Shown here: positions 36,201 through 64,000 of the stretch, piece after piece
How positions within the stretch are numbered: the stretch's first letter is position 1
How the letters are laid out: the number at the start of each line of letters is the position of its first letter
Assembly: GCF_029846175.1 (NCBI RefSeq)
Contig: NZ_JARWAC010000007.1
Span: 124,001 to 188,000 of the forward strand
Source: Sphaerisporangium sp. TRM90804
GTDB taxonomy: Bacteria > Actinomycetota > Actinomycetes > Streptosporangiales > Streptosporangiaceae
DNA: 64,000 bases
Direction of reading: 5' to 3'
Made by a program: the position numbers and the translations under genes
Notes under the pieces: generated by a model
The model's database searches: none
The model's input: the letters and a program-made list of their open reading frames with translations, nothing else
Told to the model about the DNA's origin: nothing

Positions 36201-36235
36201 ACGTTTTCTCATCAATGAACATTTTCAACCGGCCC

Positions 36236-36321: not shown

Positions 36322-36347
36322 TCGAGGGCAGGGCTGCTTAACGATCG

Positions 36348-36379: not shown

Positions 36380-36387
36380 GGAGGGGG

Positions 36388-37662
36388 TTAGGCGGAGAGG
36401 GTTTCTGGCATTTTCTTTAGTTTGGGGATGGGGGAGAAGGCCAGGACGGCTATGGGGACGAGGGCGCCGATCAGGGCGGCGGCGAAGACGACCGGGCGCA
36501 TGCCTATGGCCTGGCCCACCAGGCCCGCGACCAGGGCGCCCAGGGGGGCGGGGATGAGGCCCATGGCCCAGATGGTGGCGATGACGCGGCCGACCATCTC
36601 GCGGGGGGTGGCCGTCTGGAGCACGGTGATGTTGTTGACCACGAAGATCTGCGTGGTCAGACCGACGATGAGCTGCGAGACCCCGAGCATGGTCAGCGCG
36701 AGCCACAGCGGCCCGCCGGCCAGCGGCACCAGCAGCAGCGAGCTGTTGCCGATGACCGTGGCCCACAGCATCGTCGGGCCCGGCCCGGCGGACTTCATGA
36801 GGCGGACCGCCAGCCAGGCGCCCGCGATCGCGCCGACGCCGCCCACGGCCAGCACGCCGCCGACCCAGGCGGCGGGCACGCCCGCGTCCTCCACGACGTA
36901 CGGGAAGTAGAGCGTCTGCAGGATGCCGATGTCGAAGAACGAGTACACGGCGCTCGCGATCGCGAGCGGACGGATCATCGGCTGACCCATCACCCAGCGC
37001 AGGCCGTGCCAGATGGCCTGCAGCATCGAGGGGCCGCCCGGCTCCGGCTGCGGCTTGTCCTCAGGCTTGCGGATGAACAGCAGGCAGATCGCCGAGGTGA
37101 GGTACGTCACCACGTCGATGATGATGACCAGCGGCGCGGACCGCGCGGCCACCAGCACGCCCGCGAGGCTCGGCCCCACGGCCTTGGCGACCGAGTCGCT
37201 GAGCTGCAGCTTGCTGTTGCCCTCGCCGAGGAGCTCGCCCGGCACCAGGCTCGGCAGGTAGGAGCGGTAGGCGATCTCGAACAGCACGCCGAACAGGCCC
37301 ATCGTGAACACCACGACGTAGAGCCACCACAGCGTCAGCATGTCCATGAAGAAGAACAGCGGGACCGTGAGCAGGATGGCGGCCCGGGCGAAGTCGCTGA
37401 CGACCAGCACCGGCCGGTGACGCATGCGGTCGACCCAGACGCCGACGACCAGGAACAGCACCAGGGGCAGCCGGGCGAGCGCCCCGAGGAAGCCCATCTC
37501 GGCGACCGAGGCGTTCAGCAGCAGGTACGCCACGATGGGCATCGCCAGGACGGTGACCTGCGTGCCGACCTGAGAAAGGCTCTGGCCGGCCCAGAGCTTG
37601 AGGAAGTCCGGGTGCTTCCACAGCGTGGCCGGCTCCGCCCGCTCAGTCGTGGGTGAGGCCAT
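36388..37662 (-). CDS. MFS exporter of the NRPS-PKS operon
   Basis: 424 residues with about twelve hydrophobic helices; typical MFS_3/EntS-type start LWKHPDFLKLWAGQSLSQVG and motif VGVWVDRMRHRPVLVVSD between helices 2 and 3. Its ATG overlaps the 3' end of the terminal NRPS gene by 20 bp, so it is last in the operon and probably exports the product or gives self-resistance. That role is inferred from position. Confidence 0.82.
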   Translation of the reverse strand: MASPTTERAEPATLWKHPDFLKLWAGQSLSQVGTQVTVLAMPIVAYLLLNASVAEMGFLGALARLPLVLFLVVGVWVDRMRHRPVLVVSDFARAAILLTVPLFFFMDMLTLWWLYVVVFTMGLFGVLFEIAYRSYLPSLVPGELLGEGNSKLQLSDSVAKAVGPSLAGVLVAARSAPLVIIIDVVTYLTSAICLLFIRKPEDKPQPEPGGPSMLQAIWHGLRWVMGQPMIRPLAIASAVYSFFDIGILQTLYFPYVVEDAGVPAAWVGGVLAVGGVGAIAGAWLAVRLMKSAGPGPTMLWATVIGNSSLLLVPLAGGPLWLALTMLGVSQLIVGLTTQIFVVNNITVLQTATPREMVGRVIATIWAMGLIPAPLGALVAGLVGQAIGMRPVVFAAALIGALVPIAVLAFSPIPKLKKMPETLSA

Positions 37663-40600
37663 GATCCATGCAACTCCTCAGTTCGGCGGCCGCGTCGGCG
37701 ACCAGGGGTTCGTACATGACGGTGAAGCGCTCGCCGAGGATGGGCGAGATGCGCAGCCGGCCGGTGACGACGGCGCGCCACCCCATGTCGTCCGGGTCCG
37801 CGCCCTCCCGGGCGGGCGAGAACAGCAGCACGTCGCCGTCGTAGGACTCGTGCCGGTAGTAACCGACGGCGTGCGCGTTGGCGCGGAAGACGTTCACGAA
37901 GCGCCGCGCCTGCTCCAGGTCGGCGGCGTCGGGCTGCAGCCGGTCGGCCTTGGCGGCGGCCTCGATGACGGCGAGCAGCCGCTCGTCGGGCTCCATGCGC
38001 CGCAGGCTCTCCAGGTCGGCCTCCACCGAGCCGCCGGCCAGCGCGTGCATCAGCAGGACGGCGTCGTCCTGGAGCGACCCGCGGATCACCGGCTCGTCGG
38101 CGTCGGAGTAGAAGAGCACGACCAGCGGGACCTCGTGCCCCATCTCGCGCAGCCGCCGCGCCGTCTCCAGGGCGATGTTGCCGCCGATGCAGTAGCCGCC
38201 GAGGACGTACGGGCCCTCGGGGCGCACCTTGAGCAGGTGGCCGACGTAGTCGTCGACCATCTCCTCCATGCTGGTGTGCGGCTCCTCGCCCGGCGCCAGG
38301 CCGCTGGCCTGGATGGCGTGGACCGGCTGGTCGGGGCCGAGGTGGCGGGTCAGCGGCAGGTAGCGGAACACCTGCCCGCCCAGGGCGTGCGACAGGAAGA
38401 CCGGCGGACGGTCGCCGCCCGGCCGCAGCGGCACGATGCGCTGCCCGCCCTCGCTGTCCTGCGGGCGGCGCAACGCGACGGCGAGCAGCGCCACGGTCGG
38501 CGCGGTGAGCACCAGCGAGACGGGGATCTCCCGGCCCAGCTCCTTGCGCAGCTTCATGGCCAGCCGCAGCGCCAGCAGCGAGTGGCCGCCGAGCGCGAAG
38601 AAGTCGTCGTGCACGCCGATGGCGCTCAGCCCCAGCGTCTCCTCCCACAGGGTCGCCAGGCGCGCCTCGAACGGGTCGCGCGGCGGCAGGTAGGGAGCGC
38701 GGCCGGTGATGCCGGGGTCGGGCAGCGCGGCCCGGTCGAGCTTGCCGTTGGCGGTGACCGGTAGGGCGTCGAGCGGCACCCAGGCCGACGGCACCATGTG
38801 GTCGGGCAGGACGGGGCGCAGCCGCGCGGCGAGGTCGACGTCGGCGCCGGGCTCGGTGGGCACCACGTACGCGGCGAGGGTGCCGCCGCGCAGCGCCACC
38901 ACGGCGGTCCTGACCTCGGGCAGCGCGGCCAGCCGGGCCTCGATCTCGCCCAGCTCGACCCGCTGCCCGCGGATCTTCACCTGGAAGTCGGTGCGGCCGA
39001 GGTACTCGATCTCGCCGTCCGGCAGCCACCGGGCCACGTCGCCGGAGCGATACAGCCGCGCCCCCGGCGGGCCGTAAGGGTCGGGGACGAACCGTTCGGC
39101 CGTCAGCGCGGGGCGGTTCACGTAGCCCCGGGCGAGCTGGACGCCGCCGATGCACAACTCCCCGGGCGTCCCGACGGGCACCCGCTCGCCGCGCGTGTCG
39201 AGCACCTCCAGCCGGGTGTTGGCGACGGGCCGCCCGATGGGGACGACGCTCTCGCCGGCCGCGCAGGCGTGCCACGAGACGTCCACGGCCGCCTCGGTGG
39301 GGCCGTACAGGTTGTGCAGGCCCACGCCGGGCAGCCGCTCGTGGAAGCGCCAGGCCAGCTCGGCGGGCAGCGCCTCACCCGAGCAGATCACCCGCCGCAT
39401 GCGCCCGGGAAGGGTGGGCTCCTCCAGGAAGAGCTCCAGCATGGACGGCACGAAGTGCAGGGTCGTGACGCCCTCCGTCTCGATGAGCGAGGCCAGGTAG
39501 GCGCTGTCCCGGTGCCCGTCCGGCCGGGCGACCGCGAGCCCGGCCCCGGTCATGAGCGGCCAGAACAGCTCCCACACCGACACGTCGAACCCGATGGGCG
39601 TCTTCTGGACGACGCGGTCGGCGGAGGTCAGCCCGAACGTCTCCTGCATCCACAGCAGGCGGTTCACGATCGCGCGGTGGGAGACGCCCACGCCCTTCGG
39701 CCTGCCGGTGGAGCCGGAGGTGAAGATCACGTACGCCAGGGCGTCGGGCGGGACGGACGGCGGTGCGTGGCCCGCCGGGGCCTCGGCGGGCGGCGCGTCC
39801 ACGCGCAGCGCGACGCCGCCGGGCACCGCGCCCTCGGTCTCCCCGACCACCAGCACCGTGCGGGCCCGCGCCTCTTCGATCATGTACGACAGCCGCTCGG
39901 CGGGCAGGCCGGGCTCCAGCGGCAGGTAGGCCGCGCCCGCGCCGAGCACGCCCAGCAGCGCGGGCAGCAGCTCCGGGCCGCGCGGCAGGTGCACGCCCAC
40001 GACGTCGCCGGGACGGGTGCCGGCGCCCACCAGCAGGGACGTCACCGCCGCCGCCCGTGCCGCCAGCTCGCGGTAGGTCAGCCAGAGGCCGTCGTAGCCG
40101 ACGGCCGGCGCCGACGGCGTGCGCGCGGCCTGCGCGGCGATCAGCTCGTGCAGCGTCCCGGCGGCGTACGGCCGCCGCGTCGCGTTCCAGCGCTCGATCG
40201 TGTCGCCGTCCGCGGCGAGGTAGGGCGCCGACGGACGGGGGTCGCCGTCGGGCCCGGCGGCCAGGGCGCGCAGCGCGGTCAGGTAGTGGTCGCGGATCCG
40301 CTCCATCTGCGCGGCGGTGAACTGGGCGCGGTCGTAGGTGAGGGTCAGGTCGAAGCCGCCGTGGTCCCTGCTCCGGCCGAAGCTGACGGTGAGCGGCAGG
40401 TCGGTCTGCTCGAAGAACTCCTGGTCGAGGAGCTCGATCCCCGCCTCCGCGGGCATGCCGCGGTAGACGTGGAAGTCGCGGAAGTCGAACAGCACGTCCA
40501 GCAGGGGCGAGCGTCCGCTGGCGCGCTGGATCTCGAACAGCGGGTACTGCCGGTGCGGCAGCAGCGCGACCTCCGCGTCGAAGACGCGCCGCACCAGCGC

Positions 40601-41545
40601 GCCCCACGTGGGCGCGCCGGCGTCCACCCCCAGCGGAACGGTGTTGAGGAACAGCCCGAGCACCTCCTCGCCGGCCTCGCTCTCCGGGCGGCCGTGCGTG
40701 ACCAGGCCGGTCATCACCTCCGGCCGTCCGGTCAGCAGGGCGAGCACCCGCGCGTGGACGGCGAGCAGCACGGTGCGCAACGGCACCTGGAGCGTCCGCG
40801 CCACCGCCCGCAGGTCGTCCAGCACGCCGGCGGGCACCGGTGCGGCCAGGACGTCGACGGCGCGCGTCTCCCCGGCCGGGGCGCCCGGCAGGCGCGGGAT
40901 CCGGGTGTCGGGGGCGTCGGCGACCCGGGCGTTCCAGAAGTCCTTCGCCTCCGGGGAGGCGACCAGGGCGCGCTCGCGGGCCACCAGGTCGCGGAACGCC
41001 GCGCCGGGCGGCCGCACCGGGAGCGGGGCGCCGGCCAGGTGCGCCGCGTACCGGCGGAACAGCTCGGTGGTGAACGCGGCCACGCTCCAGCCGTCGAGGA
41101 TCGCGTGGTGGAAGCTGAGGCTGAACGCGAACAGGCCGCCGGGGAGAAGGTGCACGTGGACGCGGGCCAGCGGCGGGCGGGCCCAGTCGAACGGGCGCAG
41201 CTTCTCCCGCTCCGACCACTCCCGCAGCCGGGCGGGCGCGTCGGCCTCGCCCGTGAGGTCGGTGACCTCCAGGGGCAGCTCGGCGGACCGGTGCACGAGC
41301 TGGATGGGCTCGCTGAACCCGGCGAGGTCGAAGGAGGTGCGCAGGACGGGATGGCCGGCGGTCACCTCCGCGAGCGCCGCCGCGAAGGCCGCGCGGTCGA
41401 ACCGGCCGCGCAGGGTGATGGTCGTCAGATCGTGGTAGGTGGGCGCGCCGGGCTCGTACTCGCTGTGGAACAGCATGCCGGCCTGGAGCGCCGCCAGCGG
41501 ATAGGCGTCCTCGAGACCTCGTGCGGGACCGGCCGTGACCGTCAT
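37643..41545 (-). CDS. NRPS termination module C-A-PCP-TE (predicted Ser)
   Basis: 1300 residues. C domain (about 10-440) opens [16 protein letters not shown], a DCL-like start, with HHAILDG near 147. A domain (460-950): [14 protein letters not shown]; pocket read by eye D-V-W-H-I-S-L-V-D, matching the serine code. [16 protein letters not shown] (Ser near 987). TE (about 1040-1300): nucleophile elbow GGYCIGGN has Cys in place of Ser, and where the catalytic His is expected the sequence is [11 protein letters not shown], an Arg. The TE is therefore non-canonical. The ATG overlaps the upstream gene stop (ATGA). It should add the last residue and release the chain, perhaps unconventionally. Confidence 0.88.
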
Positions 41546-44500
41546 CGCATCTCACCTCCGAGCAGTCGGGCCATGTCATCGGGGTTGAGCAGGCCGAAGG
41601 CCGCCGCGCTCGGCTGCTCCGGCTCGGTGTCGTCCCGCGCGGAACGCAGGTGCGCGGCCAGCTCGCGCACGGTCTGGTGCAGGAAGACCTGCTCCAGCCG
41701 GACGCCGTAGCCCTCCTTGCGGAGCCTCGCCACCACCTTGAGGCTGCGGATGGAGTCGCCGCCGACGGCGAAGAAGTTGTCGTGCGCGGAGACGCGGTCG
41801 AGGGCCAGCACCGCGCGCCACGCCTCGGCGACGGCCGCCTCGGCCGGGCCGCGCGGGTCGTCGTGGGGAGCCCGCTCGTCGGGGCCCGGCACCGGCAGGG
41901 CGCGCCGGTCGAGCTTGCCGCTGCCGGTGACGGGCAGCTCGTCCAGCACCACCCAGCTCGCGGGGATCATGTGGTCGGGCAGCCGCGCCGCGAGCGCGTC
42001 GCGCCACTCCCGGACGGAAGCCGTGCCGGTCGCGTGCTCCGGGGCCGTGGCGGCCGGCTCCCGGACGGAAGTCGTGCCGGCCGGGCGGTCGGGGACGGAC
42101 ACCGGTCCCGCCTCGGCGGGGGGCGTGGTGGCCGGATGCTCGGGGACGGACGCCGGGCTCGCCTGGGCGGGGGCCGTGCCGGTCGGGCGGTCGGGGACGA
42201 CGTAGCCGGCGAGGCGGAGGCCGGCGCCGTCTCGCACGGCGTGGACGGCGGCGGCCCGCACACCGGGCAGGGACGCCAGCGCCGCCTCGATCTCGCCCAG
42301 CTCGACCCGCATGCCGCGGATCTTCACCTGGAAGTCGGTGCGGCCGAGGTACTCGATCTCGCCGTCCGGCCGCCACCGCGCGAGGTCGCCGGTGGCGTAC
42401 AGGCGCGCCCCCGGCGGGCCGTGCGGGTCGGGCACGAAACGCTCGGCGGTCAGGGCCGGCCGGTTCACGTAGCCCCGGGCGAGCTGCACGCCGCCGATCC
42501 ACAGCTCGCCGGGCACGCCGACGGGCACCCGGTTCAGCCGGGCGTCCAGGATCTCCAGCCGGGTGTTGGCGATCGGCCGGCCGATCGGCACCGTGCCCTC
42601 CCCCGGGGCGCAGGCGTGCCACGACACGTCCACGGCGGCCTCGGTCGGGCCGTACAGGTTGTGCAGCCCGGCGGCGGGGGCGGCCAGGGTGAGGCGTCCG
42701 GCCAGCTCGGCGGGCAGGGCCTCGCCGGAGCAGACCACGGTGCGCACGCCGCTCAGCCGCCGTTCGAGGCCGGGCTCGTCGAGGAAGGCGTCCAGCAGGG
42801 ACGGCACGAAGTGCAGCGTGGTGACCGCCTCGGCCTCGATGACGTCCGCGAGGTAGGCGGGGTCGGCGTGCCCGCCCGGGCGTGCCACCACCATGCCCGC
42901 GCCGGTGATCAGTGGCCAGAACAGCTCCCACACCGACACGTCGAAGGTGAACGGCGTCTTGTGCAGCACCCGGTCGTCCGGCCCGAGGGCGAACGTCTCC
43001 TGCATCCAGCGCAGCCGGTTGACGATCGCCCGATGTGACACGCCCGCGCCCTTGGGCCGCCCGGTCGAGCCCGAGGTGAAGATCACGTACGCCAGCGCGT
43101 CCTGCGGCACGTCCACGTCCGGCAGGACCGCCACGTCGGCGGGCGCGTCCTCGGCAGAAGCGGCGTCGGCGGGCGCGGCGTCAGCGGGCACAACCTCGGT
43201 GGGCGCGACGTCGGGGGTGTCCAGCAGGATGGGGGTGACTTCGGCGGGGAGGGACGCGGCCGTCGTGGCGGTGGTGAGGACGAGGCGGGCGCCGGCCTCG
43301 GCGGTCATGAACGCGAGGCGTTCGGCCGGGTGGCCGGGCTCCAGGGGGAGGTAGGCGGCGCCGGCGGCCAGGACGGCGTGCACGGCGACGACCAGGTCGG
43401 CTCCGCGCTCCAGGCACACCCCGACCACCTGGTCCGGGCCGGCGCCGTGCCGCCGCAGCGTGCCGGCCAGCCGGTTCACCCGGTCGGTGAACTGCCCGTA
43501 CGTCAGCCAGGCCCGGCCCCGCCCGTCCGGCCGCTCGTACCCGAGCGCCGGGGCGTCCGGCGTCGCCGCCGCCTGCCAGGCCACCAGGCCGTGCAGGGTC
43601 GCCGCGTCGCCGTCCGGGTCCTCGTACACGCGGGCGGTGGCGTTGGCCGTCTCGATGGTCGCCAGCTCACCGGCGGTGAGCAGCGGGAGGGCGGAGATCG
43701 GGGTGTCCGGCTCGGCGACGGCGGCGGCGAGGAAGGCGCGGTAGTGCTCGGCGAGGCGCTCCACGCGCTCGTGGCCGAACAGGTCGGTCGCGTAGTGCAG
43801 CAGCCCGACCAGGCGGTCCCCGGCCTCCTCGACCACCAGGTGCAGGTCCACCTGCGCGACGCCGGGGTCGAGGTCGAGGGTCCGCAGCGTCAGGCCCGCC
43901 GCCTCGGGCGGCGAGGGCGGGACGTTCTGGTAGGCGAACATCACCTGGAACAGCGGGTTGCGCGACAGGCTGCGCTTCTCGGCCAGCTCCTCGACCAGGA
44001 CCTCGAACGGCAGATCGGCGTGGTCGTGCGCCTCCAGCACCCGCTCCCTGGTGCGGTGCAGCAGCTCGGCGAAGCCGGGATCGCCGGACAGGTCGCCGCG
44101 CAGCACCAGCGTGTTGAGGAAGAGCCCGGCGACCTCCTCGACGGCGGGGTGGTCGCGCCCGGAGACCGGCGTGCCGACGGGGATGTCGGTCCTGCCGGTG
44201 TAGCGGGACAGCAGAGCCTGGAGCGCGGCCAGCATCACCATGAACGGCGTGGCGCCGCGCGACTGGGCGAACGCCCGCACGGCGGCGACCGTTCCGGCGT
44301 CGACGGTGAACGTCAGCCGCCGCCCCTCGAAGGTGGGCCGTCCCGGCCGGTGGCGGTCGGCGGGCAGGTCGAGCGTGTCGGGCAGGTCGGCGAGCGCCCG
44401 CTTCCAGTAGTCGAGAGCGCCGCCGCTCGGGCGTCCGCGCTGCCAGACGGCGAAGTCCCGGAACCCGGCGGTCAGCTCGGGCAGCTCGGGGCGGTCGCCG

Positions 44501-51600: not shown

Positions 51601-52001
51601 TCCTCGGCGGCCACCCGCGCCAGGTGCGCGCGCCACAACGGCGCGGCGCCCAGCTCGAACGGCCGCGCCGCCTCCCGGGCGGCCAGCTCGTCGAACGCCT
51701 TCTCCCGGCCGGGGCCGTCCCGGCCGTCGTCCGCGGTCAGGTCGGTGACGGCCATCGTGACGGGCAGCTCCACCGCGACGAGCTGCACCAGGGCGCCGTC
51801 CTCGACCACCAGGGCGGTGCGCAGCGCCTCGTGCCGCTCGACCACCCCGGCCAGGGCCTTCCGCAGCCGGTCGGGGTCGATCTCTCCGGGCAGGTCGATC
51901 CGCACGTTGAGGTTCTGGACGGGGATGTCGGGTTCCAGCCTGCTCAGGAACCACAGGCGCTCCTGGGCGAACGAGGCCGGGAACACGTAGCTGCGCGTCA
52001 C
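48672..52001 (-). CDS. NRPS single module C-A-PCP (predicted Gly)
   Basis: 1109 residues. GTG 52001 follows GGAAGG and gives [20 protein letters not shown], a direct C-domain start. C active site [10 protein letters not shown] (near 145), with Ala where Gly is usual. A domain with [14 protein letters not shown] and FDIAALE (near 687); pocket D-I-L-Q-I-G-Y-V-W, close to the glycine code [25 protein letters not shown] (Ser near 1051). It follows the PKS and MbtH genes, so its C domain should accept the ketide-extended chain. An 18 bp repeat sits in the linker at 49111-49194. The stop overlaps the next GTG. Confidence 0.88.
49111..49194. repeat. 18 bp tandem repeat (GHAADT) in an A-domain tail
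   Basis: Four exact 18-base units GCGTGCCCGGTGTCCGCC at 49111, 49129, 49147 and 49165, plus a partial fifth. They encode GHAADT repeats in frame, between the A8 and A10 regions of the 48672 gene. Confidence 0.85.
50526..50555. repeat. 15 bp duplication within the A2 core motif
   Basis: Two 15-base copies turn the conserved LTYAEL (A2 motif) into [11 protein letters not shown] in the 48672 gene, keeping frame. Confidence 0.75.
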
Positions 52002-52012
52002 TGATGCCCTTC

Positions 52013-52204
52013 CTAACCGCCCATGGCTTCGCGCAGGCTGCGCGGCCGCATGTCTGTCCACACCTGGTCGATGTGGTCGAGGCACTGCTGCTTCTCGCCC
52101 GAGAAGCCCGTCTCCCGCCATCCGCCGGGGACCGGCCGGTCGGCGAACCAGATCGAGTACTGCTCCTCGTGGTTCACCACGACCTTGTACGAGCCGTCCT
52201 GCAT
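52013..52204 (-). CDS. MbtH-like NRPS accessory protein
   Basis: 63 residues with the family pattern: SYKVVVNHEEQYSIWFADRP, then GWRETGFSGEKQQCLDHIDQ and VWTDMRPRSLREAM, including the conserved Trp residues. MbtH proteins bind A domains and support their folding and activity. It lies one base after the PKS stop and 11 bp before the next NRPS start, embedded in the operon. Confidence 0.95.
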   Translation of the reverse strand: MQDGSYKVVVNHEEQYSIWFADRPVPGGWRETGFSGEKQQCLDHIDQVWTDMRPRSLREAMGG

Positions 52205-52205
52205 G

Positions 52206-55200: not shown

Positions 55201-57764
55201 CCGGCCGTCCACAGGGTTCCGGCGGTGGCGCACAGCACCTGGAGGTCCGACTTGGCGTCCGACGGTCCGGGCAGGCTGGCCAGCGGCGCCGTGCCGCCCT
55301 GCCGCACCTGTGTCCTGGCCAGGCCGGCGAGCTGGCGTCCGGGCCCGCACTCGACCATCAGCCAGTCGCCCTCGGCGAGCAGGGTGGCGACGCAGTCGCC
55401 GAACCGGACGGTCTCCCGCAGGTGGCGCGTCCAGTACGCCGGGTCCACGGCCTCCTCGGCGGTGATCCACGTGCCGGTGAGGTTGGACAGGAAGGGCAGG
55501 CCGGGCACGTGCCGCGTCACCCCGGCGACCAGGTCGTGGAACTCGGCGAGGACGGGGTCCATCATCGGCGAGTGGAAGGCGTGCGAGGTGCGCAGCCGCG
55601 TGTGACCGGTGCCGTCCTCGGCGAGCGTCGCCGCGTACCGGTCGACCAGGTCGTCCGGCCCCGCCACCACGCAGGCCCCCGGGCCGTTGACGGTGGCGAT
55701 CGACAGGCCGTCGGGCAGGCGCCCGCGCAGCTCGTCCTGGTCGAGGCGGACGGCGAGCATCGAGCCCGGCGGGATGCCCTGCATCAGCCGGCCCCGGGCC
55801 GCCACCAGGCGCAGCGCGTCGGGCAGGTCGAAGACGCCCGCGCAGGCGGCGGCCACGTACTCCCCGATGCTGTGGCCGATCATGCCGGAGGGCTCGACCC
55901 CGCACGAGCGCCAGAACCGCGCGAGCGCGTACTCCACGGTGAACAGCGCGGGCTGGGTGAACTCGGTGCGGCGCAGCCGCTCCTCGGCGGCCTGGCGGTC
56001 GGCTTCGGCGGGCATCAGCAGGTCGCGCAGGTCGAGGCCGATCTCGTCGCGCAGGATCTCCGCGCACTCGTCCACGGCCGCCCGGAACGTCTCCTCGGCG
56101 CGGTAGAGCTCGGCGCCCATGCCCGCGTACTGGGAGCCCTGGCCGGAGAACAGCCACGCCACGCGCGGCCGTCCGGCGCTGCCCTTGACCAGGCGCCGCG
56201 GGTCGCGAAGCGCGCGCACCGCGTCGGCGGCGTCCGAGGCTACGACGACGGCGCGGTGCTTCATCTCGCGCCTGCCGGCGCCCAGGGTGAAGGCGACGTC
56301 GGCCAGGTCGAGGTCCTGGCCCGGCTCCTCCAGCCGGTCGGCGAGGCGCGTCGCCATTGCGGCGAGCGCGGACGGCGTGCGGGCCGAGAGCCGCAGCAGG
56401 TGGGCGGTGCGCGGCTCGCGGGGCACCGGGTCCAGAGGGGGCGCCTCCTGCAGCACCACGTGGGCGTTGGTGCCGCCGATGCCGAACGAGCTGACGCCCG
56501 CGCGGCGCGGGAAGTCCTCCGGCTCCCACTTGGTGGGGGCGCTGACGACGTAGAAGGGGTTCTTCCCGAACCCGATCTCGGGGTTCGGGCGCTCGAAGTT
56601 GATGCTCGGCGGGATCAGCCCGTTCTCCAGCGCCAGCACCGTCTTGACGAACCCGGCGATGCCGGCGGCCGGACCGAGGTGCCCGATGTTGGTCTTGACC
56701 GAGCCGATGCCGCACCAGCCGGCCTCCGTCGTGTCCCGGTGGAACACGTTCGACAGGGCCGCCACCTCGATGGGGTCGCCCATGGAGGTGCCCGTGCCGT
56801 GCGCCTCGACGTAGGTCACCGTGCGCGGGTCGGCCCCGGCCACGTCGAGCGCCTGCGCGACGGCGACCGCCTGCCCCTCGGAGCTGGGCGCGGAGAACCC
56901 CACCTTGGTGGCGCCGTCGTTGTTGATCGCGTTGCCGATCACGATCGCGCGGATGTGGTCGCCCGCGGCGACCGCCTCCGACAGCCGCTTCAGCACCGCG
57001 ACGCCGCCCCCGCCGCCCCACACCGTGCCCTTGGCGCCCGCGTCGAAGGCCCGGCAGTGCCCGTCGGCGGCGTAGATGCCGTCCTGGTGGTACTGGTAGC
57101 CCCACTCGGGCGGCATCTCGATCGAGACGCCGCCGGTGAGCACCATGTCGCACTCCCCGGCCCGCAGCGCCTCGCACGCCACGTGCAGCGCGACCAGCGA
57201 GGAGGAGCAGGCGGTGTGCATCGTCAGGCTCGGGCCGCGCAGGTCGAGCTTGTAGGAGACGAGCGTGGACAGGTAGTCGGGGTGGTTGCCGACGTAGATG
57301 CCGAGGTTGCCCACCGAGGCGTGCACGCTCTTGTCGCGCCGGATGTACATCCACTGGTACTCGTCGGAGCCGACGGCCCCGTAGACGCCGATCTCGCCCG
57401 GGTAGCGGGCCGGGTCGTACCCGGCGTCCTCCAGGGCGGAGTGCGCCAGCTCCAGGAACATCCGGTGCTGCGGGTCGCGCGTCTCGGCCTCGCGCGGCGA
57501 CATGCCGAAGAACGGGGCGTCCAGGGCGCCGTAGTCGGCGGCGATGGACGCGGCCCGGACGAAGGTGGGGTCGTCCAGCAGGTAGCCGGGCACGCCGAGC
57601 GCCGCCTGCTCCTCCTTGGTGTAGAACCTGACCGACTCCACCCCGTCCACCAGGTTGCGCCAGAACGCCGGGACGTCCGGCGCGCCGGGCAGCCGGCAGG
57701 ACAGGCCGACGACCGCGATCGGCTCGACCGTGTATTCCTCGTCAGTGCTCATCGGGCCGGTCAT
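52206..57764 (-). CDS. Type I PKS module KS-AT-KR-DH-ACP (malonyl)
   Basis: 1852 residues. KS with Cys in HTACSSSLVALH (near 185), EAHGTGTSMGDP and KTNIGHLGPAAG. AT GHSIGEY (near 632) with HAFHS (near 730), predicting malonyl-CoA. KR with ITGGLGGIG (near 1150) and Tyr-Asn in VDYCAANNF (near 1303). DH follows the KR: HRIAGVAVMPGTGYLE (His near 1393) and HPALLDEA. Carrier FFELGGNSLVAVQ (near 1778). All catalytic residues look intact, so an alpha,beta-unsaturated two-carbon extension is expected. KR before DH is an unusual order. The ATG overlaps the upstream NRPS stop (ATGA); AGGAG precedes it. Confidence 0.9.
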   Translation of the reverse strand: MTGPMSTDEEYTVEPIAVVGLSCRLPGAPDVPAFWRNLVDGVESVRFYTKEEQAALGVPGYLLDDPTFVRAASIAADYGALDAPFFGMSPREAETRDPQHRMFLELAHSALEDAGYDPARYPGEIGVYGAVGSDEYQWMYIRRDKSVHASVGNLGIYVGNHPDYLSTLVSYKLDLRGPSLTMHTACSSSLVALHVACEALRAGECDMVLTGGVSIEMPPEWGYQYHQDGIYAADGHCRAFDAGAKGTVWGGGGGVAVLKRLSEAVAAGDHIRAIVIGNAINNDGATKVGFSAPSSEGQAVAVAQALDVAGADPRTVTYVEAHGTGTSMGDPIEVAALSNVFHRDTTEAGWCGIGSVKTNIGHLGPAAGIAGFVKTVLALENGLIPPSINFERPNPEIGFGKNPFYVVSAPTKWEPEDFPRRAGVSSFGIGGTNAHVVLQEAPPLDPVPREPRTAHLLRLSARTPSALAAMATRLADRLEEPGQDLDLADVAFTLGAGRREMKHRAVVVASDAADAVRALRDPRRLVKGSAGRPRVAWLFSGQGSQYAGMGAELYRAEETFRAAVDECAEILRDEIGLDLRDLLMPAEADRQAAEERLRRTEFTQPALFTVEYALARFWRSCGVEPSGMIGHSIGEYVAAACAGVFDLPDALRLVAARGRLMQGIPPGSMLAVRLDQDELRGRLPDGLSIATVNGPGACVVAGPDDLVDRYAATLAEDGTGHTRLRTSHAFHSPMMDPVLAEFHDLVAGVTRHVPGLPFLSNLTGTWITAEEAVDPAYWTRHLRETVRFGDCVATLLAEGDWLMVECGPGRQLAGLARTQVRQGGTAPLASLPGPSDAKSDLQVLCATAGTLWTAGAAVDPGALTAPGRRVPLPHYPFERSHHWVPILPDPEMVYPAPPRTGALPVQEWFSVPAWRQAPVPVTGTPLTGRCLAFAGPTAAPLVAALRAGGAEVVTVTAGDAYGRSPDGSFTVRPGVREDYDALVAEAGVPERVVHAWALDEPPDERTPGRVWAAQDLGFFSLLNLVQALAQADREADVHLDVLTAGTQGVVGADLTRPEHATVAGIAKVVPLEAPWLSVRHVDLADPSHDLAPLLAELARDPALDRPEEGTPPSPVALRGGRRWVRGYEPVEVTAADAGLRQGGVYVITGGLGGIGVTLAEDLAVRLRARLVLLGRSGLPPREEWDALAGGADRTSRAVAAIRRMEAAGAQVLTLAADVTDAGAMRRVREETLARFGRVDGVVHAAGLPGGGMAEVKERETAESVLAPKILGAVALREAFGDLDLDVVMLCSSVTAVAGGFGQVDYCAANNFLDAYAQTWPGRVVSVNWGAWLEVGMAAEVAAPVAFRALQRGDRVTALDHPVLTHRHEPSADRLPWCTGQISPATHWLLDEHRIAGVAVMPGTGYLETARHAFEASVPSPGPGHVVELRDVAFTTPLSLADDASAELRVVFAPGGDGVEFEVTSVAGERSTSHARGIASWVPAAARADDAGDLAEVRLRCSYGISHATDEMFSASSSGLLTFGSRWGGVRAVHMGQNEHLARLEAGREAAAELDRLPLHPALLDEATAFVSALVGGKYLPLGYGRLTLLAPLPAKLWSHARLRDTEGGEIVAVDLTLYDDGGERVAEVADFVLRRIDAADVARGVDEAARETAGAQAVDEQSAAAGAALDAEGAKRGIAPAEGADAFRRLVAFDLGVQVVVNATPLAEFVAGVRELTQDTVAEELGTTAGEAVADDDATGHVAPRTELESTLAGLWCEVLGAKRVSVEDEFFELGGNSLVAVQLIALLRKKLGVRLPMRSLFQVPTVRGMAALVEEIRAQGSGGGAGKDAAPAASGGDKQVAIKRLPRMERA

Positions 57765-60700
57765 TCGTTGTTCTCCTGTCTGGCCTGGTGAGGCCTTCGC
57801 GACGAGGGACGCGCCTGGCGCGCGGCGATCCGCCGGGCGGCGCGCTCCGATCCTTGGAGCCTTCGGTCGCCGTCCAGGTGCGCGGCGAGGGAGCGGACGG
57901 TCGGGAAGCGGAAGAGGTCGACGATCGGCACCTCGCGGCCGAGGGAGGCGGCCAGGCGCACCTGGACCTGCGCGGTGGCGAGCGAGTGACCGCCGATGTC
58001 GAAGAAGTTCTCCTCTGCGGAGACCCTCGGCACGCCGAGGACCTCGCGCCAGACGGCGGTGATCAGCCGCTCGGTCGCGGTCGCCGACTCCTGGCCGGGC
58101 CCGCGCGCGGGGCGCGGCGCCGGGGCGGGAAGCGCGGCCCGGTCGACCTTCCCGTTCGGGGTCAGCGGCAGGGCGGGCAGCAGGATCACGTCGGCGGGCA
58201 CGGCGTAGCCGGGCAGGCGGTCGCGCAGGTGGCGGCGCAGCTCGCCCGGCGGCGTGCCGGCCGCGGCCGGAACGGCGTACGCGCGCAGCAGGGGGCCGTC
58301 GGGCCGGTCGACCGCGACGACGACGGCGGCCCGCACGCCCGGGTGCGCGGCGAGGGTGTTCTCGATCTCGCCCAGCTCGACCCGGTAGCCGCGGATCTTC
58401 ACCTGGCCGTCGCGCCTGCCGGCGAGCACGACGCGGCCGTCGGGGTCGTAACGCCCGAGGTCGCCGGTCCGGTACCGGCGGACGGCCTCGTCGGGGCCCT
58501 CCGGCGTGAACCGCTCCTTGGTGAGCGCCTCGTCGAGGTACCCCTCGGCCAGCCGGCGCCCGCGCACCACCACCTCGCCCAGCTCGCCCACGGCGGCCGG
58601 CGCGCCGCCGGGCGTCAGCACGAGCAGCTCGGCGCCGTCCACGCCGTGCCCCACGGGCACCGGTCCCGCGGCGGCCGTCCGGTCGGTGATCTCGTACATG
58701 GCCTGCACCTGGGGCGTCTCGGTGGTCCCGTAGGTGTTCACCAGCCGGGCGTTCGGCGCGACCCGCGCGAGGCGCGCGACGTCGGCGCGGGTGAGCCGGT
58801 CGCCGCCGAACAGCACCAGCCGCAGGGCGGGCAGCCGGACGCCCGCGGCGGCCACGAGCGTGGCGAGCTGCGGGGTGACGTGGGCGACGGTGACGGCCTC
58901 GTCGCGCAGCCACGCGGCCAGGACCGCGGGGTCGCGGACGGCGTCCTGCCCGGGGACCCGCAGCGTCGCGCCCGTGACCAGGGGGGTGAAGGCGTCGCGC
59001 AGCAGCGGGTCGTGGGCCGGGCCGGCGAGCAGGGCGAACCTGTCGTCCGGCCCGAGGCCGAAGGCGCGCGGGTACCAGTCGAGGAAGCGGGCGAGCGGGC
59101 CTTCGGCCGCGCGCACCGGCTTGGGCTCGCCCGTGGTGCCCGAGGTGAACGACAGGTAGCCACGCCGTCCGGCGGGCACGACCGGGGCCTCGCCGTCGCT
59201 GTTCGACTCCAGGACCGGCTCGGGGCGCCCGGCCAGTTCAGGGAGCCCGGCCGGCTCGGGGAGCCCGGCCAACTCGGGGAGCCCGGCCAACTCGGGGAGT
59301 CCGGCCAGTTCGGGGGGCGTGACGGTGCCCGGGCAGCGCAGCAGGGCGCGGGCGTCGACGGCCCGGGCCTGGGCCGCCAGCCGGGCGGGCGGCAGCGCCG
59401 GGTCGAGCACGGCCCACCGCGCGCCGCTCGCGAGCACGCCGAGCAGCAGGGCGGGCAGCTCGCGGTGGCGGGCGGCCAGCACCGCGACCGCCTGGCCGGG
59501 CAGGACGCCCGCGGCGGCGACGGCGCGTGCCGTGCGGTTCATGAGGCCGACCAGCTCGGCATAGGTCAGCTGGCCGCCCGCGTCGGCGACCGCGACCCGC
59601 CCGGGGTGGCTCGCCGCCCGGCGCAGCACCCGCTCGACCAGGCCGGGGCCGTCCCACGCGGGCAGCTCGGCGCTCCCGTCGGGAAGCGCCCGGCCCACCG
59701 GGCCCGCCGGTCGGAGCCGGGCGAGGCCCGCCGGCCGGGCGGGGTCGTCCACCAGCTCGCCGAGCAGGTGGACGTACCCCGCGAGCAGGGCCTCGACGCG
59801 CTCGGCCCGGAACAGGCGGGGGTTGTACACGGTGTGGAGGACGTAGCGGCCGTCCCGCTCGGCCACGTACATCGTCAGGTCGAACAGCGAGCCGGGCAGT
59901 CCGGGCGGCAGCGGGCGGGCGGTGATCCCGGGCAGGTCGAGCCGGGGCTCGGAGAAGTCGTACATGTTGAACTGCACCTGGATGAGCGGGTTGCGCGACA
60001 GGTCGCGGCCCGCCACCAGCCGGTCCACCAGGCGCTCCAGCCGGGTGTCGAGGTGGGCGAAGGCGCCCGACAGCGCCTGCTGGCAACCGGTCGCCTGCTC
60101 CTCGAACGTCCGCTCGTCCGCCACGGTGAGCCGGAGCGGCATGACGTGGACGAGGCAGCCGGCCAGCGGCTCGAACGCCGGGTCCCGCCGGTCGGCGACC
60201 GGCGTGCCCACGATCACGTCCTCGGCGCCGCTCAGCCGCCGGAGCACCTGGGCGAACGCCGCGAGCAGCACGGCGTACGGCGTGACGCCGAGCCGCGCGG
60301 CGAGCCGGCGGACGCCCCGGCTCGCGCCGTCGTCCACCTCCGTCCCGGACGCGGCGCCCTCGAACGTCTGCACGGCCGGGCGCGGGTGGTCGCCGGGCAG
60401 GTCGAGCACGGTGGGCGCGCCGCGCAGCGCCTCGGCCCACCAGTCGAGGTCGGCTGGGGACTCCCGGGCCGCGAGCCAGGCGACGTAGCCGCCGAAGGAG
60501 GTCGCCAGCGGCGCGTACGGCTCGCGCCGGTACGCCCGTGCGACGTCCTCGTACAGCACCGCCTGCGACAGGCCGTCGAACACGATGTGGTGCGCCGTGA
60601 CGGCGAGCACGTGCTCGTCCGGCCCGAGCCGGAACAGCCGCGCCCGCCACAGCGGCCCGGCCGCGAGGTCGAAGGTGCGGCGCGCCTCCTCCTCCAGCAG

Positions 60701-63196
60701 CGAGCGCAGCGCCGAGTCCGGCGGGGCGGCCTCCTGCCCGGCGGCGGAGTCGAACGTGTGACGCGCCTCCTCCTCCAGCAGCGAGCGCAGCGCCGAGTCC
60801 TGAGCGGCGGCCTCCTGCCGCCCGGCGGCGGAGTCGAACGTGCGGCGCGCCTCCTGCTCAGGCGGCGGGGGTGACGCGGGCTCCGGCGCGCCGTCCCCCC
60901 GTCCGTCGAACGGGAGGGCGCCGGTCAGGTCCTCCACCGGCAGCGGCACCTCGCCCGGCGGCTCCACGACGACCACCGGCACGCCGCCGGTCTCCGGGAC
61001 ACGCCAGCGCAGCACCTCGTGCCGCCGGGCGACCTCCCCGAGCGCGGCGCGCAGCGCGCCTGCGTCGAGCGGGCCGGACAGCCGCAGCGCCATCGCGATG
61101 TTGTGCGCGGGCGTGCCGGGCGAGAGCCGTTCCACGAACCACATGCGCCGCTGGATCGCCGACAGCGCCGCCGGGGCCTCGGCGGGCGGGGCGCCCGCGG
61201 GCGGGGCGGCCTCGACCCGGCGCGCGATGCCCGCGACCGTCCGGCCCGAGAGCACGTCCTCGATGTAGACGTCCCTGCCCAGCTCGGCGCGCAGGGCCGA
61301 CACCAGGCGCATGGCGAGCAGCGAGTGGCCGCCCGCCGCGAAGAAGTCGTCGCCGGGCCCCGGCTCGGCGTCGCCGAACGTGCGGGCCCACGCCGCGGCG
61401 ACGAGCCGCTCGGTCTCGGTGCGGAGCGCCTCGCCGCGCGCCGGGACCGGGCCGGGGGCGGCGGCGTGGGCATGGGCGCGCAGGCGGGCCAGGTCGACCT
61501 TGCCCGCCGTGGTCAGCGGCAGCACGGGCAGCCCGACCACCTGCGTGGGGACCATGTAGGCGGGCAGGCGGGCCAGGCAGTGCTCGCGGATCGCCCCGGG
61601 GTCGGCGGCGTCCCCGGGCGCCAGGTAGGCGACGAGGGCCCGCAGGCCCGAGGGGCCGGTGTCCACGTCCACGACGGCCTGGCGCACGCCGGGGTGGGCG
61701 CGCAGCACCGACTCGACCTCGCCGATCTCCACCCGCTGCCCCTGGATCTTCACCTGGCGGTCGAGCCGTCCCAGGAAGCCGATCCGCCCGTCGGGCTCGA
61801 CCACGACGCGGTCGCCCGTGCGGTACAGCCGCGAGCCCGGCGGGCCGTGCGGGTCGGGGACGAAGCGGTCGGCCGACAGGCCCGGCCGATCCAGGTAGCC
61901 CCGGGCGAGCTGGGGACCGCCGATGCACAGCTCGCCGGGCGTGCCGGGCGGGCACGGCTCCAGCCGGTCGTCCAGCACCCGCGCCACGCAGCCGGGGAGC
62001 GCGTGGCCGATCGGCAGCGGCCGGTCCCACGCGCCGGACAGCTCGGTGCCGACCACGCACACCGTGGTCTCGGTGGGCCCGTACCAGTTGTGGAACCGCC
62101 GCGTCCCCGGGCGCGCCCACCTGGCGACCTGCTCCGGCCCGGCGGGCTCGCCGGCGGTGAGCAGGTCGCGCAGCAGGGGCAGCCGGTCGGGGTCGAGCAG
62201 CGGCAGCAACGCGGGCGGGATGGTGCCCCAGGTGACCTCGTGCGCCTCAAGAAAGCGCTGCAGCCGGACGGGGTCCACCCGGTCGTCGTCGGGGATGAAC
62301 GCGACCGAGCCGCCCCTGGCCAGCGGGGCGAAGACGTCGAGCACCGACACGTCGAAGCCCAGCGCGGCGAAGCCGATGCTGCGGCAGCCGGCGTCGAGGC
62401 CGAAGAACTCCCCGGCCATCGTGACGAACGCGACCGCGGACGCGTGGCTCACCACCACGCCCTTGGGACGGCCCGTGGACCCGGAGGTGTACAGCACGTA
62501 GGCCGCGTTGGACGGGTGCGGCCGCCCGTCCCGCGCCCCCGCCTCCCACGACGGCACGCCATCGGGAGCGGCCGAGTCGCCGGAGGCCGCCGCGTCTTCC
62601 GGGGTCTTCGGCCGGTCGCGGTGGGCCGGGACGTCGGGATGGGCCGGGCCGGAGGCGGCCGGGACGTCGGGGTGGGCCGCGCCGGAGGCGGCCGGGATGT
62701 CGGGGTGGGCCGCGCGGGAGGCGGCCGGGATGTCGGGGTGGGCCGCGCGGGAGGCGGCCGGGCCGTCGGGGTGGGCCGCGCCGGGGGTGGCCGGGGCGTC
62801 GTCCTCGGCGGGCGCGAACAGGCGGACCGGGAGGCCCGTCAGCAGGTCTTCGGCGCCGGGGCCGGCCACCACGTGTCGGATCCCCGCGTCCTCGACGACG
62901 CCGGCCAGCCGCGCGGGCGGGTGGCCGGGGTCCAGCGGCACGTACGCGCCGCCCGCCCGCAGCACGCCGAGCACCGCGATCAGCAGCTCGGGCGTCCGGC
63001 GGGCGCAGACGCCGACGCGCACCTCCGGCCCGACGCCGGCCTCGCGCAGCCGCGCGGCCAGGGCGTCCGCAGCGCCGGTGAGGCGCCGATAGGTCAACCG
63101 CCGGTCCCACTGCCGCACCGCGATGGCGTCCGGGGTGCGCGCGGCCTGGCTGACGACGAGATCGTGCAGGAGTGCCACCGTCGTGCCCCCGCTCAA
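57761..63196 (-). CDS. NRPS loading and second module A-PCP-C-A-PCP, second A Lys2-like
   Basis: 1811 residues. The protein begins directly with an A domain (loading): [21 protein letters not shown]; pocket D-V-L-G-L-A-W-V-C, no code I know. PCP FFAAGGHSLLAMR (near 622). C with HHIVFDGLS (near 869). The second A reads YLSFTSGTTGEPKP and AHDPLLRDAF (near 1397), the pattern of Lys2 alpha-aminoadipate reductases; pocket D-P-R-H-L-G-T-Q-V. PCP FFDIGGHSLATAQ (near 1737). TTG 63196 overlaps the upstream stop (TTGA). Tandem repeats at 62628-62792, 60679-60855 and 59231-59317 expand loops. It initiates the assembly line and hands a dipeptide to the PKS. Confidence 0.88.
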   Translation of the reverse strand: MSGGTTVALLHDLVVSQAARTPDAIAVRQWDRRLTYRRLTGAADALAARLREAGVGPEVRVGVCARRTPELLIAVLGVLRAGGAYVPLDPGHPPARLAGVVEDAGIRHVVAGPGAEDLLTGLPVRLFAPAEDDAPATPGAAHPDGPAASRAAHPDIPAASRAAHPDIPAASGAAHPDVPAASGPAHPDVPAHRDRPKTPEDAAASGDSAAPDGVPSWEAGARDGRPHPSNAAYVLYTSGSTGRPKGVVVSHASAVAFVTMAGEFFGLDAGCRSIGFAALGFDVSVLDVFAPLARGGSVAFIPDDDRVDPVRLQRFLEAHEVTWGTIPPALLPLLDPDRLPLLRDLLTAGEPAGPEQVARWARPGTRRFHNWYGPTETTVCVVGTELSGAWDRPLPIGHALPGCVARVLDDRLEPCPPGTPGELCIGGPQLARGYLDRPGLSADRFVPDPHGPPGSRLYRTGDRVVVEPDGRIGFLGRLDRQVKIQGQRVEIGEVESVLRAHPGVRQAVVDVDTGPSGLRALVAYLAPGDAADPGAIREHCLARLPAYMVPTQVVGLPVLPLTTAGKVDLARLRAHAHAAAPGPVPARGEALRTETERLVAAAWARTFGDAEPGPGDDFFAAGGHSLLAMRLVSALRAELGRDVYIEDVLSGRTVAGIARRVEAAPPAGAPPAEAPAALSAIQRRMWFVERLSPGTPAHNIAMALRLSGPLDAGALRAALGEVARRHEVLRWRVPETGGVPVVVVEPPGEVPLPVEDLTGALPFDGRGDGAPEPASPPPPEQEARRTFDSAAGRQEAAAQDSALRSLLEEEARHTFDSAAGQEAAPPDSALRSLLEEEARRTFDLAAGPLWRARLFRLGPDEHVLAVTAHHIVFDGLSQAVLYEDVARAYRREPYAPLATSFGGYVAWLAARESPADLDWWAEALRGAPTVLDLPGDHPRPAVQTFEGAASGTEVDDGASRGVRRLAARLGVTPYAVLLAAFAQVLRRLSGAEDVIVGTPVADRRDPAFEPLAGCLVHVMPLRLTVADERTFEEQATGCQQALSGAFAHLDTRLERLVDRLVAGRDLSRNPLIQVQFNMYDFSEPRLDLPGITARPLPPGLPGSLFDLTMYVAERDGRYVLHTVYNPRLFRAERVEALLAGYVHLLGELVDDPARPAGLARLRPAGPVGRALPDGSAELPAWDGPGLVERVLRRAASHPGRVAVADAGGQLTYAELVGLMNRTARAVAAAGVLPGQAVAVLAARHRELPALLLGVLASGARWAVLDPALPPARLAAQARAVDARALLRCPGTVTPPELAGLPELAGLPELAGLPEPAGLPELAGRPEPVLESNSDGEAPVVPAGRRGYLSFTSGTTGEPKPVRAAEGPLARFLDWYPRAFGLGPDDRFALLAGPAHDPLLRDAFTPLVTGATLRVPGQDAVRDPAVLAAWLRDEAVTVAHVTPQLATLVAAAGVRLPALRLVLFGGDRLTRADVARLARVAPNARLVNTYGTTETPQVQAMYEITDRTAAAGPVPVGHGVDGAELLVLTPGGAPAAVGELGEVVVRGRRLAEGYLDEALTKERFTPEGPDEAVRRYRTGDLGRYDPDGRVVLAGRRDGQVKIRGYRVELGEIENTLAAHPGVRAAVVVAVDRPDGPLLRAYAVPAAAGTPPGELRRHLRDRLPGYAVPADVILLPALPLTPNGKVDRAALPAPAPRPARGPGQESATATERLITAVWREVLGVPRVSAEENFFDIGGHSLATAQVQVRLAASLGREVPIVDLFRFPTVRSLAAHLDGDRRLQGSERAARRIAARQARPSSRRPHQARQENNE
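59231..59317. repeat. 18 bp tandem repeat (LPELAG) in the Lys2-like A domain
   Basis: Five units (59231, 59249, 59267, 59285, 59303) encode LPELAG or variants LPEPAG and RPEP, in frame, just before the nucleotide-binding A3 loop. Confidence 0.85.
60679..60855. repeat. 81/84 bp tandem duplication in a C domain
   Basis: The segment reading RRTFDSAAG...DSALRSLLEEEA occurs twice before the genuine RRTFDLAAGPLWRARLFRL; unit lengths are 81 and 84 bases (27 and 28 residues). It inserts about 55 residues ahead of the HHxxxDG motif while keeping frame. Confidence 0.82.
62628..62792. repeat. 33 bp tandem repeat (11 residues x5) in the loading A domain
   Basis: Five exact-length units starting 62628, 62661, 62694, 62727 and 62760 encode AAHPD(G/I/V)PAAS(R/G) repeats, positioned in the loop before A3. 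Units 3 and 4 are identical. Confidence 0.9.
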
Positions 63197-64000
63197 AGTG
63201 AACTGTCCAGGGTGTCGAAGCGCAGCAGCGTCCGGCCGCGCGGGAGGGCGACGGCCGCGAGCGCCTCACCGCGTGAGGTGGGCAGCGGCAGGTGGGTGAC
63301 GTGCCACCCCGCGATGTCGGTCGCCGTCGCCGTGGCGATGCCGGGCGCCGTCGCCGTCGCGAGGGCGGTCGCACGGCCCGGCGGCGCGGGCGGCGGGCCG
63401 GGGTCGCCGTGCGCGACGGGCCGCCACGTGCCGGGGGCGGCGAGGTCGGGGAAGCCGACGCTCGAAGGCTCGACCCCGCTCGCCGCCACCAGCGCCTTCT
63501 TCGCCGTACGCGCGCGCAGGGCCAGCCACGGACGGTCCTCCTCGGCGGCGCCCTCGATCTGCTCAAGCTCGTCGGCGCTGAGCAGGGCGTCGTCGGGGTG
63601 GCCGCCGTCCAGGGCGCGCAGCCGCTCGACCGCCACGCCGATCTCGCCGCCCGGGGAGACGGCGGCCAGCGCCAGGCCGTCGCCGCCGGCGACGCCGCAG
63701 CTCGGGGCCGGGCCGGCGGAGTCGTAGCGGCGCATGACGGCGTCCGCGAGGCGCGCGGCGGGGACGTCCCCGGTGGCCAGCCAGACGTGCACCTCGTCGT
63801 CGCCGACCCGTTCGGGGGCGTGGCCGTCCGCCAGGTCGTCGGCGAGCAGCCGGGCCAGGCCGGCGTCCGGGTCGGCCAGGAACAGGTGACCGCCGCGCAC
63901 GGTGCGCAGGCGGAAGCGGGAGCTGGTGTGCCTGCCCCATCCGAGCATCACCGGCGGCGGCACCTCGGCGTCGTCGAGCCCGGCGACGGCGACCACGGGA
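63193..64000 (-). CDS. Phosphopantetheinyl-transferase-like protein, partial and apparently degenerate
   Basis: The frame is open to the right edge, so the N-terminus may be missing (a GTG lies at 63996). The order resembles Sfp-type PPTases: an SPGGEIGVAVERLRAL segment where VGVDVE is expected, then SADELEQIEG and RPWLALRARTAKKALVAASG where WxxKEAxxKA.G is expected. The first metal-binding Asp is Ala and the KE pair is not intact. Either this is a diverged, possibly inactive PPTase or a relative I misplace. It is the most upstream operon gene seen, coupled to the NRPS by TTGA. Confidence 0.6.
   Translation of the reverse strand, partial: PVVAVAGLDDAEVPPPVMLGWGRHTSSRFRLRTVRGGHLFLADPDAGLARLLADDLADGHAPERVGDDEVHVWLATGDVPAARLADAVMRRYDSAGPAPSCGVAGGDGLALAAVSPGGEIGVAVERLRALDGGHPDDALLSADELEQIEGAAEEDRPWLALRARTAKKALVAASGVEPSSVGFPDLAAPGTWRPVAHGDPGPPPAPPGRATALATATAPGIATATATDIAGWHVTHLPLPTSRGEALAAVALPRGRTLLRFDTLDSSL

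Follow-up and report, generated by a model that had tools for sequence, protein, structure and literature searches.

A hybrid NRPS-PKS operon of Sphaerisporangium sp. TRM90804 with a predicted dehydrating condensation domain and a Cys/Arg release domain

Assembly lines that combine nonribosomal peptide synthetase (NRPS) and polyketide synthase (PKS) modules are a well known kind of biosynthetic system. In the microcystin synthetases, which are hybrids of this kind, McyE contains a Lys2-like adenylation (A) domain; DPRH codes are found in Lys2 as well as in McyE, and both enzymes act at the distal carboxylate of their substrate. Condensation (C) domains of the C_modAA type are defined by a [K/R]SVLLAAH stretch preceding motif C5 (PMC11342130), and among thioesterase (TE) domains with a Cys nucleophile, ObiF has a Cys-His-Asp triad and forms a beta-lactone, its Cys-to-Ser mutant mainly hydrolysing (PMC6668435). 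Here we describe a reverse-strand NRPS-PKS operon of Sphaerisporangium sp. TRM90804, situated in a window of 64,000 nucleotides (positions 124001-188000 of contig NZ_JARWAC010000007.1, termed C63; assembly of 8.3 Mb in 86 contigs, surroundings with 73% G+C). With moderate confidence we read it as a dedicated, vertically shared line that makes a single family of small exported peptides, with the predicted chain X - (amino-diacid + C2 ene) - Gly - Gly/Ala - dehydroalanine (Dha) - Ser.

The core of the operon (36388-63196) consists of seven genes in the order N1, PKS, MbtH, N2, N3, N4, and MFS. A previous sequence-only reading had described them as overlapping or nearly contiguous genes of one assembly line plus exporter; their place, order and junctions as well as the domain order given for each gene were borne out. 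Its statement that the operon continues to the right also holds, namely by one gene (63193-64542), followed in window-extended coordinates by a divergent gene at 65218-66357, which rules out an operon ending at the window edge. The complete line thus reads TE-pseudoPPTase / A-T-C-A-T / KS-AT-KR-DH-T / MbtH / C-A-T / C-A-T-C-A-T / C-A-T-TE / MFS (T, carrier domain; PPTase, phosphopantetheinyl transferase) and is a hybrid type I NRPS-PKS, with A, C and T as well as KS, AT and carrier domains on collinear genes and a terminal release domain (Table 1). Junctions were computed with start sites picked by ribosome-binding-site-like sequence and overlap, which gave 4-nt overlaps at first gene/N1, N1/PKS, N2/N3, and N3/N4, a 20-nt overlap at N4/MFS, and gaps of 1 and 11 nt flanking MbtH. 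Judged from the sequence, this anatomy is close to certain and co-transcription of the genes is likely. An assignment as siderophore (iron) cluster was unsupported, the ABC genes of the right flank matching families of sugar-type permeases and binding proteins (BPD_transp_2 and Peripla_BP_4).

Table 1. Features of the operon and of the stretch between the oxidoreductase and MFS genes (window coordinates; the first gene extends beyond the window end at 64000)
Feature	Position	Strand	Basis
First gene, type II thioesterase + decayed Sfp-type PPTase-like domain	63193-64542	-	Pfam Thioesterase 2.3e-34
N1, A1-T-C-A2-T, loading and second module; A2 Lys2-like	57761-63196	-	Domain calls, pocket alignment
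PKS, KS-AT(HAFH)-KR-DH-ACP, KR before DH	52206-57764	-	Domain calls, catalytic motifs
MbtH-like protein	52013-52204	-	PF03621 6.7e-22
N2, C-A3-T, Gly-type pocket	48672-52001	-	Domain calls, pocket alignment
N3, C-A4-T-C-A5-T; Gly-like, then Ser; second T with GGDSI	41542-48675	-	Domain calls, pocket alignment
N4 C domain, dehydrating C_modAA type (predicted), signature RTVLLAVH	40196-41545	-	McyA/AmbE matches
N4, C_modAA-A6-T-TE; Ser pocket; TE with GYCIGG, Arg at catalytic His position	37643-41545	-	Domain calls, alignments
MFS exporter	36388-37662	-	PF07690 2.1e-25; orthologues at same place in relatives
F420-type luciferase-like oxidoreductase (LLM), putative cluster member displaced from MFS	19203-20327	-	TIGR03559
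Interval genes: DUF6223, two-component pair, DUF2332, SDR, TPR, NmrA-like, TetR, methyltransferase, hydrolase, glycosyltransferase	20328-36387		
Methyltransferase	31250-31975		
Hydrolase	32261-33088		
Glycosyltransferase	33181-34566		

The query for a search of 341 genomes of the family to which the window belongs was a 401-residue PKS stretch that covers the end of KR and DH. Matches at E <= 1e-20 were obtained in 87 genomes, 24 of which (window included) contain a full-length match at >=64% identity. Within a class-wide sample, nine out of 394 genomes matched at E <= 1e-60 and every one of them belongs to this family, the extra-family share of the sample not being stated; a gene-order search (54 out of 345, nearly all of the same family) adds little. 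Loci were fetched from 20 genomes, designated by G numbers. Since the terminal half, i.e., C_modAA, Cys-TE and MFS, occurs consecutively in 13 of these, the domain and gene order is not due to chance. Two sub-types were observed, the window type with Gly for A3 and a Gly-like A4, and a type with Ser for A3 and the A4 code DTEDIG(S/T)II, represented by G047, G035, G354, and G356. First gene, N1 and PKS are present in G053, G261, G264, and G265, where the other NRPS genes are divergent, and G025 contains a short form (first gene-N1-PKS-MbtH plus oxidoreductase) without N2 to MFS, which is a relict or else makes a much smaller product. In these layouts, N1-PKS is the core that is conserved, and what is exchanged is the C-terminal half.

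All A domains detected in the fetched loci were aligned, and the pocket codes were read from this alignment. The codes of A5 (DVWHVSLV-D) and A6 (DVWHISLV-D), which we take to be of Ser type, agree with the two Ser residues assigned before, and of the two Gly-like domains proposed, A3 (DILQIGYV-W) is of what we take to be Gly type, while for A4 (DIVQITLV-W) the likeness stands and the substrate, Gly or Ala, is uncertain due to T at position 301, where the code departs from Gly codes. A Gly code printed elsewhere is DILQLGMIWK (PMC12283262). For A1 (DVLTLAWV-C; extracted from 17 genomes and identical in 13 of them), the substrate X is probably a hydrophobic amino acid. Extraction of A4 failed for several relatives.

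The code of A2, DPRHLGTQ-V, begins with DPRH in all 14 cases extracted, and Arg is situated at position 239 within HDPxxRD; we presume here both the numbering of this position and that R239 is linked to a second carboxylate. A2 was alone among four A domains tested in matching the Lys2 profile TIGR03443 at E <= 1e-50. Because this match, 315 bits and nearly level with the generic A-domain model, covers the A domain only, lies far from the cut-off of 1030 bits and lacks a reductase, A2 is Lys2-like and not a Lys2 enzyme. Thus, of the earlier assignment as aminoadipate- or Lys-like, the Lys2-likeness is retained and Lys is not: code and profile point to an amino-dicarboxylic acid, which A2 rather likely loads and whose distal carboxylate would be activated. 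In full-text literature searches, which left most subscription journals outside their scope, the exact codes of A1, A2 and A3 had no match, and no text with the DPRH code strings of Lys2 and McyE was found. For a related code, DPRHLALLAK, the zeamine paper gives 2-aminoadipate as the predicted substrate (PMC3547906), an assignment repeated in PMC12283262.

In the PKS, the motifs TACSSS (KS), GHSIGEY and HAFH (AT) and YCAANNFLD, HRIAGVAVMPG and LHPALLD (KR/DH) are intact. By its HAFH motif the AT is of the malonyl type, in good agreement with the single malonyl unit with KR and DH that had been read from the sequence. As the motif patterns were unmatched in some relatives' copies, e.g., for DH in G035, G356, and G060, intactness is claimed for the matching copies only.

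The nearest solved relatives of the N4 C domain are McyA (339.6 bits) and AmbE (238.8 bits), followed by PvdL with 141.2 bits. Its aligned signature, RTVLLAVH, compares with KSVLLAAH in McyA and RSLLLAAH in AmbE; all 13 N4 orthologues have the Arg, and 12 of them have the His. The domain retains the active-site motif HHAILDG and follows a Ser module, and in all 11 clusters with an N4-type C domain the upstream pocket is of Ser type. A pattern scan of the other A- or KS-bearing frames of the window region yielded no further C_modAA signature. By its relatives, signature, DG and the module upstream, it belongs to the C_modAA class, and because Ser is loaded upstream of such a domain, Dha is predicted at the penultimate position; we have good confidence that the first of the two Ser would be converted. 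The earlier count of six amino acids consequently holds for the six A domains and does not hold for six plain residues. As regards the C domains of N2 and N3 (41542-52001), their motifs are HHAVFDA, HHIVADR, and HHVITDR; HHAVFDA together with two HHxxADR motifs also occurs in G218, G236, G231, G224, G227, and G246.

The release domain of N4 differs from the canonical type I NRPS TE in that, according to the alignment, the Ser/Cys-His-Asp triad is not present. The nucleophile motif is GGYCIGG, an Arg is aligned with the His residues of AB3403 (in GDH) and Pks13 (in GEH), and the Asp position after strand 5/6 is atypical (FYSDAD vs IDTRA in AB3403). With a pattern that accepted either Ser or Cys as nucleophile and any of Arg, His, Lys and Gln in place of the catalytic His, all 13 orthologues gave Cys and Arg. 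An AlphaFold model computed from 11 sequences (mean pLDDT 72.8, pTM 0.75) has the alpha/beta-hydrolase TE fold with AB3403 (4zxh) as best match (Z 22.7, rmsd 3.5, 262 aligned). For PacP, a TE lacking the usual triad is mentioned and called inactive (PMC8748450). Since there is no His at the usual place of the general base and acyl-enzymes formed on Cys are resistant to hydrolysis, which is suppressed by the Cys-TE in ObiF (PMC6668435), ring closure is favoured over hydrolysis, and we give release by intramolecular ring closure an even chance.

In an ordinary variant of this line, A2 would load Lys or a common amino acid via the alpha-carboxylate, the TE would hydrolyse with a recruited base and both Ser would stay, giving a linear lipidless hexapeptide-ketide. 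Several His of the TE (H24, H61, H138, H196, and H203) are invariant in 11 of 11 sequences and such specificity codes are poorly calibrated, 2-aminoadipate being named as hard to predict (PARAS); against this, A2 combines Arg at 239 with a Lys2-profile match that is absent from the three control A domains, and the C_modAA match lies 200 bits over the next C class in the PDB list, with the signature kept. We consider the ordinary variant unlikely.

The sequence-only reading had seen no tailoring enzymes inside the window, which cannot be maintained: apart from the modifying C domain of N4, an F420-type oxidoreductase (19203-20327), likely a tailoring enzyme, travels with the cluster. Its protein scores 337.6 bits against TIGR03559 (LLM class F420-dependent oxidoreductase), by a narrow margin above the cut-off of 335. 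The gene is located beside the gene set in 18 of the 20 fetched genomes (window copy included); it adjoins MFS in most complete clusters, lies 8 kb away in G354, adjoins PKS or MbtH in G025, G053, G261, G264, and G265, and was not found in the fetched stretches of G060 and G257. At E <= 1e-110 it occurs in 41 of the 341 family genomes, all 41 being among the 87 PKS-positive ones, and in 23 of the 24 high-identity PKS genomes. We are highly confident that the oxidoreductase belongs to the cluster. As the gene is retained beside N1-PKS also in genomes that lack N4, the part derived from N1-PKS is the more likely target of the enzyme; the alternative is reduction of Dha, as carried out by an F420-dependent reductase in lexapeptide (PMC10880069).

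In the window, approximately 16 kb of other genes (20328-36387) separate the oxidoreductase from MFS, whereas in the sister species G007 of the same genus the distance is approximately 140 bp. In a blastn comparison of both, homology flanks the interval on both sides, and a single 49-nt piece was matched inside. This piece (window 20528-20575, region of the DUF6223 gene) matches the 3' part of the G007 MFS gene at 84% identity and represents chance similarity or the trace of a rearrangement. The G+C content is 0.671 in 28000-36387 vs 0.759 in the operon. The simplest reading of the interval is an insertion. Its position between oxidoreductase and MFS would also suit a pathway in which the glycosyltransferase, methyltransferase and hydrolase of the interval tailor the product together with the oxidoreductase, yielding a glycosylated, methylated compound; since counterparts of any of the interval genes (>30% identity, half length) are lacking in the stretches of five relatives compared and G007 has the short distance, we regard this as very unlikely.

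The first gene encodes a type II thioesterase fused to approximately 200 further residues. For this C-terminal part no ACPS Pfam match was obtained in the copies of the window, G025, and G035, while the orthologue of G047 contains a recognisable Sfp-type PPTase (ACPS 5.6e-15). Read by eye, the metal-binding Asp of GVDxE is present in one of 15 copies, that of G047, and replaced by Ala in the window, so that the features of an Sfp-type PPTase are found in G047 only. An 'EEDRxWLALRAxTAKxAL'-like stretch is retained in most of the 15 copies, and the predicted structure of the fusion protein has a pLDDT of 80.6. The pattern suggests a conserved pseudoenzyme. Together with the TE without His, the HHxxxDR motifs and the 16-kb insert, the pseudo-PPTase might instead mark a decayed or partly silent relict with no finished product in this strain, the PPTase Asp being lost in 14 of 15 copies and the window genome being alone among close type-I relatives in having the LLM gene parted from MFS. 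Across 28 kb, though, every reading frame is open, KS, AT, KR and DH have intact catalytic motifs, and the odd residues are conserved across genera, which is not expected from decay; a relict is highly improbable.

The gene divergent to the operon (65218-66357) matches CBAH/AAT (C45-like) Ntn-hydrolases above the Pfam cut-offs and reaches 74.2 bits with the NCBIfam C45 model, under its cut-off of 85. A copy with 67% identity is located at the same place in G007, and matches with 41-43% identity lie near the clusters of G218, G236, G231, G227, and G258. It could act as acylase, as acyltransferase or in self-protection. The gap between the operon and this gene contains, at 65036-65160 (C63:189036-189160), two direct repeats GACACTTCAACGATCG..., 60 bp apart, each followed by the palindrome-like GGAACGGTCC, possibly a regulator site.

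For the pathway we propose that A1 would load X and the C domain of N1 couple it to the amino-dicarboxylic acid from A2. The PKS would append one malonyl unit, converted by KR and then DH to an alpha,beta-enoyl group, and N2 and N3 would add Gly, Gly/Ala and Ser. The C_modAA domain of N4 would dehydrate this Ser to Dha before coupling it to the last Ser. The chain would be transferred to the TE Cys, freed by intramolecular ring closure and exported by MFS, the oxidoreductase reducing or oxidising the N1-PKS-derived part (or Dha).

Several observations weigh against this proposal. The codes of A1 and A4 are assignable to no single substrate, and an Asn-type DPRHVSLLAK is given in PMC12283262, so that Lys2-like codes are assigned to other substrates as well. 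The C domains of N2 and N3 have HHxxxDA or HHxxxDR in place of HHxxxDG, their activity being assumed; in G354, the C_modAA signature ends in Cys in place of His. The TE model includes low-confidence stretches and yields no residue distances, and one of the invariant TE His could replace the missing base. The oxidoreductase is paired with N1-PKS without N4 in G025, G053, G261, G264, and G265; G257 has N1-PKS with no match to N4, MFS or LLM in the 47 kb fetched, and G060, 46-47% identical, has none of the companion genes. Since the oxidoreductase occurs with N1-PKS in the absence of N4 and, in G257, N1-PKS without the oxidoreductase, the plan is modular, not fixed.

It is tempting to speculate further on an exported class of bis-electrophilic peptides, in which the distal carboxylate is extended on the PKS, leaving a free alpha-carboxylate by the enoyl group with Dha further on, the His-less Cys-TE releases by intramolecular attack only (e.g., as Ser-derived beta-lactone or macrocycle), and the fused TE-dead PPTase is kept as a non-catalytic partner; in all its parts, this is quite unlikely. 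If our proposal is true, the operon stands for a widespread product family with two predicted Michael acceptors, undescribed as far as searched and residing in cultivable, manipulable bacteria. The Cys/Arg TE directly raises the issue of how release can proceed in the absence of the base, the fusion of a type II TE with a decayed PPTase, under constraint across many species, offers a tractable case for the study of pseudoenzymes, and the A2 domain of N1 could help to settle substrate and carboxylate choice of DPRH-type pockets.

The sequence-only reading knew of no product with this plan, and likewise no cluster with the same plan and a described product was found within the scope of the literature search given above. 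Among the rows displayed in a survey of Herbidospora clusters, no same-plan cluster is present and one has a partly similar starting unit (PMC4599437). By description, not by sequence, a resemblance is seen in pks/nrps-2 of Herbidospora mongoliensis, where KS/AT/DH/KR/ACP, A/T-C/A/T and C/A/T genes lie in one cluster, but with thirteen NRPS modules and an Asn/Thr-rich predicted peptide (PMC4599437). Colibactin ClbB shares the order KS-AT-KR-DH after C-A-T and adds ER (KS-AT-KR-DH-ER-T), with an unrelated product logic (PMC5490422). A1 of zeamine Zmn16 shares DPRHL and the NRPS-PKS context, its 2-aminoadipic acid being a prediction there too, and belongs to another line and product (PMC3547906). 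AmbE (AMB, Pseudomonas) and Crz1 (corallorazine) share the C_modAA family and its [K/R]SVLLAAH stretch but differ in substrates and line, the available source text mentioning no PKS (PMC11342130; PMC10880069).

The microcystin synthetases resemble the operon in their hybrid nature and in the C_modAA domain (McyA) that follows a Ser module and gives a dehydro residue. The operon does not fall into their family, since it contains a single PKS module and its residue codes differ: one KR-DH module stands against a multi-module line for an aromatic beta-amino acid, and the residues, the lack of a visible N-methylation domain, the Cys-TE with Arg and the bacterial phylum set it apart. The hybrid kind as such is well known; two features depart from the usual pattern, namely the release domain with Cys and Arg, which is conserved across genera, and the fusion with a pseudo-PPTase. 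The Cys-TEs of ObiF, SulM and AB3403 share GxCxG with N4; ObiF keeps Cys-His-Asp (PMC6668435), whereas AB3403, which among solved TEs is nearest in both sequence and fold, has a GDH that is aligned with the xxR of the TE family found here.

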